From Halobaculum sp. MBLA0147 (lineage in GTDB: Archaea; Halobacteriota; Halobacteria; Halobacteriales; Haloferacaceae), in NCBI RefSeq assembly GCF_041361345.1, contig NZ_JBGKAD010000001.1, forward strand, positions 1,364,001 to 1,428,000: a stretch of 64,000 nt of DNA, given 5' to 3'. Position 1 is the first letter of the stretch; each line of letters opens with the position of its first letter. Positions 19,336 through 34,964 of the stretch are shown in pieces. The notes under the pieces are model-generated. The model was not told where the DNA came from. It saw nothing but the letters and a program-made list of their open reading frames with translations, and ran no database searches. A program made the position numbers and the translations under genes.

Positions 19336-20613
19336 ATGGCCGAACTGCCGCTCGTGGGCGGTGCGGAGTCGACGCCGTCGGTTCCCTCGGCGGCGACCGA
19401 CGGGACGTGGCTCGCCTGTGTCGCCTGCGGCGCGACGTTCCCGCCGTTCGACGCGATCAGGTACACCTGCGACGACTGTGACGGACTGCTCGAGGTTCGG
19501 TACGCCGACCACCCGGACTTCGACGACTTCGAAGCGTCGCCGACGGACCGCGGCGTCTGGCGGTACGCCGACGCACTCCCGTTCGAAGAGGGAGTGTCGC
19601 TCCCGGAGGGTGACACGCCACTCCACCGCGTTCCGCGGATCCGCGAGGACGCGGACGTGAACCGGCTGCGCGTGAAACACGAGGGGATGAACCCCACCGG
19701 CTCGTTCAAGGACCGCGGGATGACGGTCGGGGTGCGCGTGGCACAGGCGGTCGGGGTCGACCGCCTCGCCTGCGCCTCGACGGGGAACACGAGCGCCGCC
19801 CTGGCCGCCTACGGTGCTCGTGCGGGGCTAGAGACACTCGTCTTGCTTCCACAGGGGAAGGTCGCCGCCGGGAAGGTCGCACAGGCGAGTCTCCACGACG
19901 CGCGGATCGTGGAGTTGGACGGCAACTTCGACGACTGTCTCGACGTGGTCCAGGAGTTGGCCGCCCGCGGGGAGGCGTACCTGCTCAACTCTCTGAACCC
20001 GTTCCGCCTGGAGGGCCAGAAGACGATCGGCTTCGAGATCTTAGAGCAGTTCCACGCCGACTACGGCACCTTCCCGGACCGGATCGTGCTCCCCGTCGGC
20101 AACGCGGGCAACACCTCGGCGCTGTACAAGGCGTTCCGCGAACTCGTCGCCGCGGACGCGATGGAACCAGAGCAAGTCCCGGCGCTCACGGGCGTCCAGG
20201 CGGCCGGCGCGGCCCCGCTCGTCGAAGCCGTCGAGGAGGGGAACGACGAGATCAGACGGTGGCCGGACGTGGAGACGCGCGCGACGGCGATCCGGATCGG
20301 CAACCCGGTGAACGCGCCGAAGGCGCTCCCGGGAGTTCACGGGACCGGAGGGACCGCCGTCGCCGTCGACGACGAGGCGATCACCGCGGCACAGCGGGCC
20401 CTCGCGCGAGAGGGTGTCGGTGTCGAGCCCGCCTCCGCGGCCAGTGTCGCCGGGGTGCGGAAGCTCCGCGAGCGCGGCGAGATCGGTGCCGACGAGGACG
20501 TGGTGTGTCTCACCACTGGGCACCTGCTGAAGGATCCGGACGCCGCCTACGAGGCCGGCGGCGAGCCGGTGCCGGCCGACGCGGACGCCGACGCAGTGTT
20601 GGACGCGCTCTGA
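19336..20613 (+). CDS. thrC: Threonine synthase
   Basis: A 425-residue PLP enzyme converting O-phosphohomoserine to threonine. An N-terminal zinc-ribbon-like part (CVACGATF and CDDCDGLLEVRY) precedes the fold-type II core. The Schiff-base lysine is K125 in NPTGSFKDRGM, followed by the ASTGNTSAALAAYGARAG phosphate-binding loop, LPVGNAGNTSALYKAF and the C-terminal VGVEPASAASVAGVRKL. The ATG at 19336 is chosen; the in-frame upstream extension is not family-like. It seems monocistronic, 123 bases after the ABM gene. It serves as an internal reference for the lysine-less paralog at 32707. Confidence 0.94.
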   Translation: MAELPLVGGAESTPSVPSAATDGTWLACVACGATFPPFDAIRYTCDDCDGLLEVRYADHPDFDDFEASPTDRGVWRYADALPFEEGVSLPEGDTPLHRVPRIREDADVNRLRVKHEGMNPTGSFKDRGMTVGVRVAQAVGVDRLACASTGNTSAALAAYGARAGLETLVLLPQGKVAAGKVAQASLHDARIVELDGNFDDCLDVVQELAARGEAYLLNSLNPFRLEGQKTIGFEILEQFHADYGTFPDRIVLPVGNAGNTSALYKAFRELVAADAMEPEQVPALTGVQAAGAAPLVEAVEEGNDEIRRWPDVETRATAIRIGNPVNAPKALPGVHGTGGTAVAVDDEAITAAQRALAREGVGVEPASAASVAGVRKLRERGEIGADEDVVCLTTGHLLKDPDAAYEAGGEPVPADADADAVLDAL

Positions 20614-29286: not shown

Positions 29287-30111
29287 GTGACCGAGAGACA
29301 GCACGTGTCACGTCGTCGCGAGTTCCTGGCCGGTGTCCGCGTCGTCGCCCCGGTGTTGGCGGCGGCGGGGCCGTTCGGGTTGGTCGCGGGCGCGGCGGCG
29401 GTGTCGGCTGACCTCTCCGTCGCACAGGCGCTGGGGCTGTCGACGGTCGTCTTCGCCGGTGCCTCCCAGCTCGCCGCCATCGACCTGTTGGGTGCCGACG
29501 CGTCGCTCCCGGTGGTCGTCGGCACCGCCTTGGTGATCAACGCCCGGCTGGTGATGTACTCGGCCTCGATCGCGCCGTACTTCGAGCGGCTCTCTCGCGG
29601 TCGGAAGGCGCTCGTCGCGTACCTGCTCACGGATCAGGCGTACGCGCTGTCGATCGCGCGGTTCCGCGAGCACGACACCTCGCTCTGGTTCTACCTCGGG
29701 ACGGCGGCGCCGCTGTGGATCGTCTTCGTCGCCGCCACCGCCGTCGGTGCGGTCGTCGGCGCGCGCCTCCCGCCGGCACTCCCCCTGCAGTTCGCGGTGC
29801 CACTGGTGTTCCTGGCCGTGCTCACGCCCGCGATCGTCGACACCCCCTCGACCGTCGCCGCGGTCGTCGGCGGTGCGGTCGCCACGCTCGGCGTCACACT
29901 CCCGTTCAACCTCGGACTCCTCCTCGGGGCCTCCGCCGGGATCGCCGCCGGGCTGGTCGTCGACGGCGTGGCCGGCGGTGGGTTCGACGGCGGCGGTGAC
30001 GACGACGGCTCGGAACACGACGACGAGGCCGACGACTCGGGACACGGCAGCGACGGCTCGGAGCACGCCGGTGCGAGTGACACCGGAGCCGACACGGAGG
30101 GATCGCCGTGA
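29287..30111 (+). CDS. azlC: AzlC family branched-chain amino acid permease subunit
   Basis: A 274-residue membrane protein of the AzlC family, the larger component of a two-part exporter of branched-chain amino acids. Family features are visible: APVLAAAGPFGLVAGAAAVSADLSVAQALGLSTVVFAGASQLAAIDLLG and the INARLVMYSASIAPYF motif, followed by alternating helices to about 225. The last 50 residues are an acidic His/Ser/Asp-rich tail not normal for the family. The GTG at 29287 is used; GTG 29305 is also possible. The stop overlaps the azlD start by four bases (GTGA). Confidence 0.88.
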   Translation: MTERQHVSRRREFLAGVRVVAPVLAAAGPFGLVAGAAAVSADLSVAQALGLSTVVFAGASQLAAIDLLGADASLPVVVGTALVINARLVMYSASIAPYFERLSRGRKALVAYLLTDQAYALSIARFREHDTSLWFYLGTAAPLWIVFVAATAVGAVVGARLPPALPLQFAVPLVFLAVLTPAIVDTPSTVAAVVGGAVATLGVTLPFNLGLLLGASAGIAAGLVVDGVAGGGFDGGGDDDGSEHDDEADDSGHGSDGSEHAGASDTGADTEGSP

Positions 30112-30437
30112 CGGCGTGGCTCGCCATCGTCGCCGTCGGCGTGGGGACGTTCTGTCTCCGGGCGTCGTTCCTCTACCTCTACGAGCGGATCGACCTCTCA
30201 CCGCGTGCGGAACGAGCGCTCGAACTCGTCCCGGCGGCCGTCCTCGCGGCACTCGTCGCACCGGCGCTGCTCGCCCCCGACGGGACCGTCGCGGTCGTCG
30301 GCAACGACCGCCTGCTCGCCGGTGCCGCCGCGGTCGTCGTCGCCTGGCGGACGGAGGACGTGCTGGCGACGATCGTCGTCGGCATGGCCGTGTTGCTCGG
30401 ACTCCGGTGGCTCCCGACGCTGGTCGGTCTCGTCTGA
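30108..30437 (+). CDS. azlD: AzlD family permease subunit
   Basis: A 109-residue small membrane subunit with three or four helices, starting TAWLAIVAVGVGTFCLRASFLYLYERIDLSPRAERALELVPAAVLAALVAPALL, a pattern typical of AzlD. It is expected to assemble with AzlC for branched-chain amino acid efflux. The GTG start overlaps the azlC stop, and the spacing leaves no room for another gene. Confidence 0.9.
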   Translation: MTAWLAIVAVGVGTFCLRASFLYLYERIDLSPRAERALELVPAAVLAALVAPALLAPDGTVAVVGNDRLLAGAAAVVVAWRTEDVLATIVVGMAVLLGLRWLPTLVGLV

Positions 30438-30527: not shown

Positions 30528-31841
30528 CTACTCGCCCACCGGCTCTGCCGAGCGGACGGCACTCGCGGCGCGTGCGCCACTGTCCATCGCCCCCTGGATC
30601 GACGACCACTCCGTGTAGTCGCCCGCGAGGTACACCGACCCACTGGGGTCCGTCGGCGCCGGGAGCGTCTCGAACACGCCCGGTGGTTGCGCGAACTGTG
30701 CGAACGGGAGCCGGTCCGTGTGGATCGGCTCCAGCCCGTCGAAGGACCGTTCCGGGTACCACGCCGTCAGCGCGTCACGGGTGTCGGCGGCCAGCGCCGC
30801 CTCGTCGCGGTCCAACGCGTCCTCGCCGAGGAACGTCGCACACAACAACTCACGGTCGTCGGGCGCGTACTCCGGCGCCACCTCCGACAGCGGAACGACG
30901 ACGTTCGGCGACTCCCCGTCCGTGTGCAGCAGGATCTTCTCGCCGGTGCCGAGCGGCTCCGTCGTCGGCAGCGCGTAGTACTGTGTCGTCGACGGCTTCC
31001 CCGTCGTCGGGATCAACTCGACGCCGGTCACCTCCCGTGCTCGCTTCGGGTCCGTGGCGACGACGAGCGCCTCCGCCTCGCGGCGCGCCTCCGTCGTGCG
31101 GAAGGCGACCGGTCCCGAGCCCCGAACCGCACCGCCACCGCGCTCCGTCTCGATCTCCGCCAAGGCCTCGTTGCGGACGATCTCGACGCCGGCCGCACGC
31201 ACGCGGTCGGCCAACTGTTCTGCGATCGCACCCATCCCGTCGGCCGGGACGGCGATCCGACCCCGCGAGAGCGTCCGGAACGTGTACTCGAAGACGTGCT
31301 TCGAGGTCGCCAGCGAGCGGTCGAGCGTGATCCCGCCGTAGAACGGGGCGACGAAGTTCTCGACGTACCCCTCGGCGAACCCCCAGTCGTCGAGGTACGA
31401 GCGGATACTCTGGTCGTCGCCCGCGAAGAACGACGACTCCGGGCGACTCGTCAGGTCCCGGCGCAACAACAGCGTCCGGAGTTTGTCGGCGGTCGACACC
31501 TGCCGGTTGAACGCCGACTCGACGAGCGCCCCGGGGTCGCGCAGCGGGTCCGACAGCACGGAGCGTGTCCCCTCGCTCGTGGAACACAACACCGCGCCGG
31601 GGGAGAACGAACGGAGGTCTAGAGCGTCGAGGTCCAACTCGCGCTGGACCGCGGGATAGGCGGTGAACAACACCTGGAACCCGCGGTCGAGGACGAACCC
31701 GTCGCGGTGGCGCGACCGGACGCGGCCGCCGACCGTGTCGCGCGACTCGTACACCCGCACGTCGACGCCCGCCTCCGCCAGCCGTGCGGCGGTGACGAGC
31801 CCCGCCAACCCGGCTCCGGCGACGGCGACTTCCTCGCTCAT
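30528..31841 (-). CDS. FAD-dependent oxidoreductase (protoporphyrinogen/phytoene oxidase-like)
   Basis: A 437-residue flavoprotein. The dinucleotide-binding motif is at the N-terminus (VAVAGAGLAGLVTAARLAEAGVDVRVYESRDTVGGRVRS), followed by the amine-oxidase-type DRGFQVLFTAYPAV and a C-terminal FAD segment (GSVYLAGDYTEWSSIQGAMDSGARAASAV). Members include phytoene desaturases, amine oxidases and protoporphyrinogen oxidases; the closest here is the haloarchaeal group of uncharacterised NAD(P)/FAD-dependent oxidoreductases. It may act on carotenoid-like substrates, but nothing in the neighbourhood supports that. The ATG at 31841 is the only sensible start. It converges with azlD. Confidence 0.82.
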   Translation of the reverse strand: MSEEVAVAGAGLAGLVTAARLAEAGVDVRVYESRDTVGGRVRSRHRDGFVLDRGFQVLFTAYPAVQRELDLDALDLRSFSPGAVLCSTSEGTRSVLSDPLRDPGALVESAFNRQVSTADKLRTLLLRRDLTSRPESSFFAGDDQSIRSYLDDWGFAEGYVENFVAPFYGGITLDRSLATSKHVFEYTFRTLSRGRIAVPADGMGAIAEQLADRVRAAGVEIVRNEALAEIETERGGGAVRGSGPVAFRTTEARREAEALVVATDPKRAREVTGVELIPTTGKPSTTQYYALPTTEPLGTGEKILLHTDGESPNVVVPLSEVAPEYAPDDRELLCATFLGEDALDRDEAALAADTRDALTAWYPERSFDGLEPIHTDRLPFAQFAQPPGVFETLPAPTDPSGSVYLAGDYTEWSSIQGAMDSGARAASAVRSAEPVGE

Positions 31842-32082: not shown

Positions 32083-32472
32083 TCAGTCGGCGTTCGTCGC
32101 GGGGGCACCGGGTTCGACGCCGAACCCGTCTGGGGTCAGCGTGACGGTGACTTCCTCGAAGGTGGCCTGGAACACCTGTCGGTGGTGGCCGTCGGGGTCG
32201 AACGACATCGTCGGCTCGACGAGCCCGGCCTCCTCGAGGTCGTCCAGGCGCCGGTAGACGGTCGGCCGCGAGACGCCCAGTGACTCCACCAGCTCGCAGG
32301 CGGGCTTTGCCTCGCCCGTCACCGCACGCAGGACCTCGCGTGCGTACTCGTCCGTCAGGAGGTCGACGACCTCCTCCGGCGGGGAGTCGAGCGTCGGCCC
32401 GTCGTCCGTCTCGCCGGCGTAGCGTTCTCTGGCACGGTGCACTGCCGCGGTGTCGGAGGGCGCACGGGACAT
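32083..32472 (-). CDS. ArsR/TrmB-like winged-helix regulator
   Basis: A 129-residue DNA-binding protein. The winged helix is at about 28-95: PPEEVVDLLTDEYAREVLRAVTGEAKPACELVESLGVSRPTVYRRLDDLEEAGLVEPTMSFDPDGHHRQVFQATFEEV. Similar haloarchaeal proteins are transcription factors of unknown ligand. The ATG at 32472 lies about 27 bases from a strong TTTATATA box (32498-32507, minus strand), so the message is leaderless. It is divergent from the threonine-synthase-like gene, which it could regulate; the spacer is 234 bases. Confidence 0.8.
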   Translation of the reverse strand: MSRAPSDTAAVHRARERYAGETDDGPTLDSPPEEVVDLLTDEYAREVLRAVTGEAKPACELVESLGVSRPTVYRRLDDLEEAGLVEPTMSFDPDGHHRQVFQATFEEVTVTLTPDGFGVEPGAPATNAD

Positions 32473-32497: not shown

Positions 32498-32507
32498 TGG
32501 TATATAA
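32498..32507 (-). promoter_or_regulatory. TATA box of the winged-helix regulator gene
   Basis: On the minus strand the sequence reads GATTTATATACC about 27 bases upstream of the ATG at 32472. This is one of the clearest TATA boxes in the window. Confidence 0.75.
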
Positions 32508-32706
32508 ATCTGTCCCCGTTTGCCGATCTCGAAAATCGGCGGAAGGTCGTCTCACGGAGATTCGAGTCGAACGGAGTCGACCGTGCCGTCGGTCTCGGGT
32601 CCGCAGCGGTGACACGGGGGCAGTCGGGCTGATCGCGTCGGCCGCACGCGGGCCGACACGTCCGGCGAGAAGAACCCCTATGCCGATCCGGGTCGGACAC
32701 GTTCGT

Positions 32707-33927
32707 ATGACGACCACACGAGACGGGTTCCGCGGGTTCCGGTGTTCCGACTGCGGCGCGACGTTCGACCCGGACACGCACGGCCGGTGTCCCGACTGTG
32801 ACGGCCTCCTGACGGCGCGGTACGACGACGACCCAGAACGCGTTCGCGCGGGACTGGCCGACCCCGCGGACGCGCCGTTGCCGTTCGCTTGTGCCGACCG
32901 CCTGTCGGCCAGCGAAGGGGGGACGCCGCTGCTCCGGACGGACCGCCTCGCCGAGGAGTCGGGGGTCGGGGACGTGTTCCTCAAAGACGAGGGGCGCAAC
33001 CCGACGGGGACCGTGTACGACCGGGGGATGGCGACGGCCGTCACCGCCGCGGCGACGACCGACGTGGAGCCGCTGGCGCTGGCGGCGGCGGGCAACGCCG
33101 GCCAGTCGGCCGCCGCGTACGCTGGTCGCGCGGATCTGCGGTCGTACGCGTTCGTCCCCTCGCGCACGGCGTTCTCGAACAAGGCGATGGTGAACGTCCA
33201 CGGCGGCGAGATGCGCGTCGTCGGCGGCCGGTTCGACGACGCCGCCGCGGCGGTCGACGACCAACTCGCGGCCGACTACTACTCGCTGAGCGCCTTCGAG
33301 ACGCCGTACCGCGTCGCGGGGACGAAGACGCTCGGGTACGAACTGTGTGCGGACTACGCCGTCGCGACGGACGCACTGCCCGCTCGGACGCCAGAGGCGG
33401 TCGCGGACGCGGCCCCGCTCCCGACGCCGGACGCCGTGGTCGTCCCCGTCGGCACCGGCGAGGTGCTCGTCGCCGTCGAGCGCGCCCTCGCGGAGCTGTC
33501 CGAGGCGGCCCTCCTCGCGAGCGTCCCCGCGGTGTACGCGGTTCAGCCCGCCGGGTGTGCGCCGATCGCCAGCGCCGCCGCGGCTGGCGAGGACACGACG
33601 GAGCCGTGGGACCGCCCCGACACGATCGTCGGCGAGTTGGAGATTCCCGATCCGGTCGGCGGCGACCACGCCCTCGCCGCGCTCTCGCGGCTCGAGGGCG
33701 GCGCCGTGACCGTCTCCGACGACGACGCTCTGGAGAGTGCCGTGACGGCCGCCCAGACGGAGGTCGTGGAGGTCGGCGGCGCGGGCGGCGTCGCCCTCGC
33801 CGGTGCGTGGGCACTGGCGGACGACGGGACCCTCGGCGACACGGACGACGTGGTCGTGGTCAACCCCGACGCCGGCGTCAAGACCCCAGACGTGTTGCGG
33901 AGTCACCTGATGGGCCAGGGGATCTGA
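32707..33927 (+). CDS. Threonine synthase-like protein lacking the PLP lysine
   Basis: A 406-residue fold-type II PLP-like protein. A zinc ribbon (CSDCGATFDPDTHGRCPDCDG) starts it, as in the nearby true ThrC, and the core aligns: FLKDEGRNPTGTVYDRGMATAV, LAAAGNAGQSAAAYAGRADLRSYAFVPS, VVVPVGTGEVLVAVERAL and VEVGGAGGVALAGAWALA. The position of the Schiff-base lysine (K in NPTGSFKDRG, K125 of the gene at 19336) is Y104 here (codon TAC at 33016). Without it PLP catalysis should fail, so the protein may be a pseudoenzyme or use another mechanism. The ATG at 32707 has CCCTATG 27 bases upstream. Confidence 0.78.
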   Translation: MTTTRDGFRGFRCSDCGATFDPDTHGRCPDCDGLLTARYDDDPERVRAGLADPADAPLPFACADRLSASEGGTPLLRTDRLAEESGVGDVFLKDEGRNPTGTVYDRGMATAVTAAATTDVEPLALAAAGNAGQSAAAYAGRADLRSYAFVPSRTAFSNKAMVNVHGGEMRVVGGRFDDAAAAVDDQLAADYYSLSAFETPYRVAGTKTLGYELCADYAVATDALPARTPEAVADAAPLPTPDAVVVPVGTGEVLVAVERALAELSEAALLASVPAVYAVQPAGCAPIASAAAAGEDTTEPWDRPDTIVGELEIPDPVGGDHALAALSRLEGGAVTVSDDDALESAVTAAQTEVVEVGGAGGVALAGAWALADDGTLGDTDDVVVVNPDAGVKTPDVLRSHLMGQGI

Positions 33928-34679: not shown

Positions 34680-34964
34680 ATGCCGACTGTCGACCCGAAG
34701 GGACGGATCGTCCTCCCGGAAGTCGTCCGGGACTCACTGAACATCGGGCCCGGGACGGAGGTCGAGGTCGAACGTCTCGACGGCGAGTCCGGTATTCTCC
34801 TGAAACCGGTCCCAGACCCCGAGACGACGGCAGAGGCTCTCGTCGACCTGATCGAACGGGAGGCGGCTCGCCGGACGGACCCGAGTCGACCAGACGGGGA
34901 TGCACATCCGGTCGCACGCGATCACGTGGACGCTGTGGCTCGTCACGTCTCGGACGACGGCTGA
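34680..34964 (+). CDS. AbrB/SpoVT-type DNA-binding protein, possibly an orphan antitoxin
   Basis: A 94-residue swapped-hairpin AbrB protein: VDPKGRIVLPEVVRDSLNIGPGTEVEVERLDGESGILLKPV (about 4-44), with a C-terminal region predicted helical and acidic (PDPETTAEALVDLIEREAARR). Such proteins are VapB-type antitoxins or chromatin-like regulators. No toxin gene adjoins: the next gene is on the other strand. The TATA-like GCGTATTTGACC lies about 27 bases upstream of the ATG at 34680. It is 159 bases after the RelE-like gene. Confidence 0.78.
   Translation: MPTVDPKGRIVLPEVVRDSLNIGPGTEVEVERLDGESGILLKPVPDPETTAEALVDLIEREAARRTDPSRPDGDAHPVARDHVDAVARHVSDDG

Follow-up and report, generated by a model that had tools for sequence, protein, structure and literature searches.

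P0001, a protein encoded in the 64,000-nucleotide stretch of haloarchaeal DNA analysed here (the window), has the fold of threonine synthase but lacks both the Schiff-base lysine and an intact phosphate loop. In threonine synthase, it is this lysine and this loop that hold vitamin B6 (PLP). Judging from the sequences of its relatives, the P0001 family appears to be a real, clade-wide pseudoenzyme variant within the threonine-synthase family that arose repeatedly. Our preferred reading, to which we give a probability of roughly 0.5, is that P0001 is a pseudoenzyme with a threonine-synthase fold whose former active site would bind a ligand other than PLP and/or the C-terminal tail. That P0001 performs no PLP aldimine chemistry is very likely, since both the covalent anchoring of PLP through K104 and the PLP-phosphate loop are lost, and a maintained non-catalytic function is probable. 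Docking of the tail in the pocket is, taken by itself, less likely than not. Any specific pathway proposed for the protein would be improbable. As is characteristic of pseudoenzymes, the family has a conserved fold without a conserved catalytic motif and is under selection. The original prediction had offered a pseudoenzyme or regulator, a PLP carrier or an enzyme of another mechanism; this interpretation is partly supported, and a PLP carrier is unlikely, the phosphate loop being broken as well.

The PALP profile (PF00291) matches both P0001 (202.9 bits, cut-off 35) and the bona fide thrC of the window well above its cut-off. P0001 falls below both threonine-synthase cut-offs (NF006050, 221.8 versus 303; TIGR00260, 109.5 versus 167.1), the second of which is passed by thrC, and the two proteins are 34% identical across 396 aligned residues. 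The AlphaFold model of P0001 (pLDDT 93.8) has a threonine-synthase fold and matches threonine synthases with a probability of 1.00 and TM values of 0.69-0.83, the best PDB matches being 6cgq, 2zsj and 6nmx; the best matches of the model of a lysine-bearing ortholog (pLDDT 95.3) are likewise threonine synthases. With ThrC as defined by TIGR00260 and NF006050, P0001 thus shares the fold, the zinc ribbon, the NPTG-xxx-DRG segment and the Asn loop, and unlike ThrC it carries an additional conserved C-terminal tail (Table 1). A search of the open-access literature found no report of a lysine-less haloarchaeal threonine synthase. The auxotrophy genes of Haloferax volcanii include thrC3 (HVO_2969), one or other of the paralogs. 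Plasmid-borne copies of the P0001 family were looked for and none were found.

Table 1 Features of the P0001 gene and its surroundings (window positions).
Feature	Position	Strand	Basis
Bona fide thrC, comparison sequence	19336..20613	+	TIGR00260 over cut-off
Divergent FAD amine-oxidase-like gene, the family's most conserved neighbour	30528..31841	-	neighbourhood comparison, domains
Divergent winged-helix regulator, adjoins the P0001 gene only within the genus	32083..32472	-	profile match, neighbourhood comparison
Lysine-less threonine-synthase-like protein P0001, 406 aa	32707..33927	+	translation, PALP profile match, AlphaFold model, structure matches
Zinc-ribbon region with C13, C16, C28, C31	32743..32802	+	translation, alignment
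Former Schiff-base segment NPTGTVYDRG, Y104 (TAC 33016-33018) in lysine's place	32998..33027	+	translation, alignment with thrC and orthologs
Retained Asn/carboxylate loop GNAGQ (129-133)	33091..33105	+	ortholog alignment
Conserved segment FSNKAMVNVHGG (156-167); N163 changed in tail-less lysine paralogs	33172..33207	+	alignment
R175, an invariant residue of tail-bearing members that is E or Q in the tail-less lysine paralogs	33229..33231	+	alignment
Degenerate PLP-phosphate loop PVGTGEVL (247-254); lysine-bearing orthologs PTGGGVGL	33445..33468	+	ortholog alignment
Predicted pocket-rim segment PDTIVGELE (304-312), conserved with tail	33616..33642	+	alignment
C-terminal tail VLRSHLMGQGI (396-406), ends exactly at stop codon	33892..33924	+	ortholog alignment, tail count

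The correspondence of the thrC lysine to a tyrosine in P0001, the starting point of the original prediction, is borne out by translation and alignment. P0001 reads FLKDEGRNPTGTVYDRG, with TAC as the codon of Y104, thrC reads VKHEGMNPTGSFKDRG, with the motif NPTGSFKDRG, and the lysine column is unambiguous within NPTG-xxx-DRG. Nine of the ten PALP proteins of the genome have the Schiff-base lysine, which is missing only in P0001. K104 is also missing in all 60 close orthologs first aligned, being replaced by L, Y, H, V or I in this Haloferacaceae-type clade; outside the clade, the replacements are A, T, R, V, D, L, F, N, S or others. Across 99 de-duplicated lysine-less sequences, 12 different residues occupy the site (L 33, A 19, V 11, T 11, Y 7, R 6, H 4 and others) and no replacing residue is conserved. 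Because site 104 is nearly free, the tyrosine is not a catalytic substitute, and Tyr104 as a catalytic residue is ruled out. A DNA pattern for the lysine-less motif (NPTG-xx-DRG with a codon starting with C, G or T before DRG), run on 105 sampled genomes of the window's family, detected a lysine-less copy in 100, and four of the remaining five (G026, G054, G075 and G199) proved lysine-less when read, giving 104/105 with the last genome, G205, not read. Lysine-less copies are also present in many lineages of other haloarchaeal families. An isolated mutation or sequencing error at Y104 is ruled out by this distribution within the family. A lysine-less family spanning genera, as had been proposed, therefore stands, whereas the conserved tyrosine that was to mark it does not. 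Lysine in most orthologs, which would have made the tyrosine an isolated case, is not found in the window's family, although syntenic lysine-bearing orthologs occur elsewhere in the class.

The glycine-rich PLP-phosphate loop reads PVGTGEV in P0001, versus PTGGGVG in the lysine-bearing orthologs and PVGNAGN in thrC. The zinc ribbon and the NPTG-xxx-DRG segment are common to P0001 and thrC, as had been noted, but the phosphate loop that was also listed as shared is broken in P0001, the retained glycine loop being GNAGQ. The de-duplicated set has GGG at positions 249-251 in 30 of 32 lysine members versus 2 of 99 lysine-less ones. The loop of the window's clade is now [GS]-T-G-E, and T250, E252 and E310 are invariant in the 60 orthologs compared; at the level of sequence, this loop is best described as a remodelled pocket and not as random decay. 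Losses of lysine and loop are not perfectly linked, because L074 has the lysine with a broken loop and L106 lacks only the lysine. Zinc-ribbon cysteines are missing in about 40% of family orthologs. They are replaced (by C-T-gap-A or S-S-L-D/E) in L027, L031, L034, L038 and other loci, in genus code g2, Haloferax, Halobellus and Halogeometricum, so that the zinc ribbon also seems dispensable.

Members with NPTGTFKDRG and PTGGGVG are present in other haloarchaeal families. On the upstream side, lysine-bearing and lysine-less loci share a divergent FAD amine-oxidase gene. On the downstream side they share genes for a DtxR-type repressor, a GDT1 antiporter and a LysE exporter, as compared in Haloferax, Halobellus, Halobacterium, Halostella and Haloarchaeobius, where the full order is not kept at every locus. 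Because these conserved neighbours are common, we treat the lysine-bearing members as orthologs. They share with P0001 the neighbourhood in many genomes, the tail, the rim residues and 48% identity, and differ in having Lys104 and the GGGVG loop intact and in being annotated as threonine synthase by NF006050 (L078 from Halostella pelagica scores 374.3 bits, above the cut-off of 303). The lysine state changes at least six times on trees whose alignment excluded the motif columns. A constraint that joins all lysine-less rows in a single clade lowers the log-likelihood by 189 units (AU p 2.7e-5, for a group named after the trees had been seen), and a single ancient loss is ruled out by this test; the lysine was therefore lost repeatedly, with the count and order of the older losses unsettled because the root is made uncertain by a distant outgroup. 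The losses in L106 (K to N, 88% identical to the lysine form L078) and L189 (K to R) look recent from their sequences. Two Natrinema members, L074 and L075, have the lysine with a broken loop (GAG, GTG) inside an otherwise lysine-less group, so either loss order or a regain is possible; here a single base separates Thr ACG from Lys AAG, which makes a regain or an intermediate possible. In two genomes of genus code g27 (L190, L191), the motif is NPTASL[GS]DRK, the loop is GHG and the tail is kept; this lysine-less form looks independent and more divergent.

The exporters and metal regulators near the gene provide a weak hint at a role in amino-acid or metal homeostasis. The divergent winged-helix gene and its TATA-like box were correctly recognised from the outset: the box, TATATAAA at 32501-32508, precedes the ATG of that gene by about 30 nt, is about 200 nt away from the start of the P0001 gene, and fits the regulator start at 32472. 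The regulated pair suggested on this basis finds no support outside the genus: a near-identical HTH gene was seen in the divergent position only in the three genomes of the same genus-level group. Directly downstream of P0001 (33989-34520, +), an RHH/CopG-like gene followed by a ParE-like gene forms a candidate type II toxin-antitoxin pair, and 34680-34964 (+) encodes an orphan MazE-like AbrB-fold protein. At 29308-30437 (+), beside the FAD oxidase gene, an AzlC-type gene (Pfam AzlC) is followed by a small gene for an AzlD-looking membrane protein. In L042, too, both gene clusters flank the ortholog, and many other loci have a downstream LysE exporter instead.

The tail, RSxLMxxG[I/V] or LRSHLM[GS][QK]G[IV], is kept in nearly all lysine-bearing and lysine-less members and is not present in thrC or in the outgroups read. 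The stop codon follows 9 residues past RS in 135/135 lysine-less and 52/52 tail-bearing lysine members, and the final residue is I or V in 127 of the 135 lysine-less members, a free C-terminal end like that of CysE. Many Haloferacaceae genomes, including the present one (L002/L164), also encode a lysine paralog with an intact PLP loop and without the tail. Relative to all tail-bearing members, this paralog carries E in place of N163 (10/10), E or Q in place of R175 and A in place of E312 (10/10), and P304 and G309 are likewise changed; two sets of positions can thus be told apart, one that goes with PLP binding and one that goes with the tail. From the general layout of fold-type II enzymes, residues 163, 175 and 304-312 are predicted to belong to the pocket rim. 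The carboxylate of the terminal I or V, together with the joint disappearance of tail and rim residues from a single chain, suggests, tentatively and by analogy, docking of the tail in the pocket of the same protein or of its dimer. A changed substrate of the tail-less paralog would account equally well for part of these data, the shift at N163, R175 and E312. The C-terminal Ile of CysE, CdiA-CT and EGL-9 sits in CysK-type active sites, and CYSL-1 of C. elegans is a CysK homolog without biosynthetic activity (PMC5562914). As in those systems, a PALP-fold protein would work outside catalysis and a C-terminal Ile/Val tail would be a possible pocket ligand; unlike in them, tail and pocket are in one protein, the docking is predicted and the subfamily is different. 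A profile search of the present genome gave no match above cut-off for CysE, a possible competitor of such a tail analogue.

In the mechanism we propose, a threonine-synthase fold has lost the K104 anchoring and the PLP-phosphate loop and has kept the carboxylate loop and the predicted pocket rim, which would bind something other than PLP. The former active site would take a non-PLP ligand and/or the C-terminal tail of its own chain or dimer partner, as the CysE tail plugs CysK, and P0001 would act as a binding or regulatory component, not as a catalyst. A more elaborate form of this idea, unlikely as it stands, is a class-wide haloarchaeal family in which a PLP enzyme would repeatedly have turned into a PLP-free switch: the protein's own GxG[I/V] tail fills the former site in cis or across the dimer and an amino-acid-like ligand releases it, the Haloferacaceae paralog having kept catalysis and dropped the tail.

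P0001 might still be an enzyme that uses PLP or PMP by another mechanism, with non-covalent PLP or another lysine, given the conservation of the Asn loop and of most of the NPTG-xxx-DRG segment. In some fold-type I enzymes, His takes the place of Lys (ColD, E1). Unlike these dehydratases, the P0001 family has no conserved replacing residue, and its phosphate loop has given way to another sequence, which in the window's clade includes Glu252. The conserved lysines left in the P0001 family (K93, K159, K207 and K392) are all conserved in lysine-bearing members too, and comparison of the 60 orthologs with the latter revealed no compensating lysine conserved only in lysine-less members. A lysine from elsewhere might conceivably enter the P0001 pocket. 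Overall, a PLP- or PMP-using enzyme is distinctly improbable. Repeated loss of catalytic parts, and of zinc-ribbon cysteines in some genera, could also mean that P0001 is a relic left over from a second threonine synthase, relaxed or decaying, but this is hard to reconcile with full-length frames, an invariant tail and near-universal retention (104/105 genomes). Median dN/dS is 0.13 for close lysine-less pairs (68 pairs) and 0.087 for lysine pairs (42 pairs); the pairs are non-independent, on which the conclusion does not hinge. These ratios show the P0001 family to be under strong purifying selection, and decay of P0001 is ruled out by the value near 0.13, leaving the relic highly improbable.

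Somewhat unlikely, but the rival to which we give most weight, is a non-catalytic subunit of a hetero-oligomer in which it regulates an active enzyme of fold type II; that enzyme would be thrC or the lysine paralog without the tail. An active thrC is present in the window, the paralog is found in many Haloferacaceae, and dead-paralog activators are known, for example in trypanosomatid deoxyhypusine synthase (PMC3663545). That dead paralog resembles P0001 in having a conserved enzyme fold without catalytic residues under selection, and differs in that its fold is unrelated. Since the search showed no lysine paralog in several family genomes (G283, G068, G142 and G126 among them), this paralog cannot be an obligatory partner, and the tail and rim residues, lost together from one chain, point more to docking inside a single protein.

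If P0001 is a PLP-free pseudoenzyme as we propose, many haloarchaeal genes likely named threonine synthase cannot be one, and metabolic models are affected. The lysine-bearing and lysine-less orthologs in one neighbourhood, together with the apparently recent losses in L106 and L189, offer a natural series of a cofactor enzyme becoming a pseudoenzyme. Haloferax is among the cultivable and genetically tractable organisms in which the candidate function is conserved.
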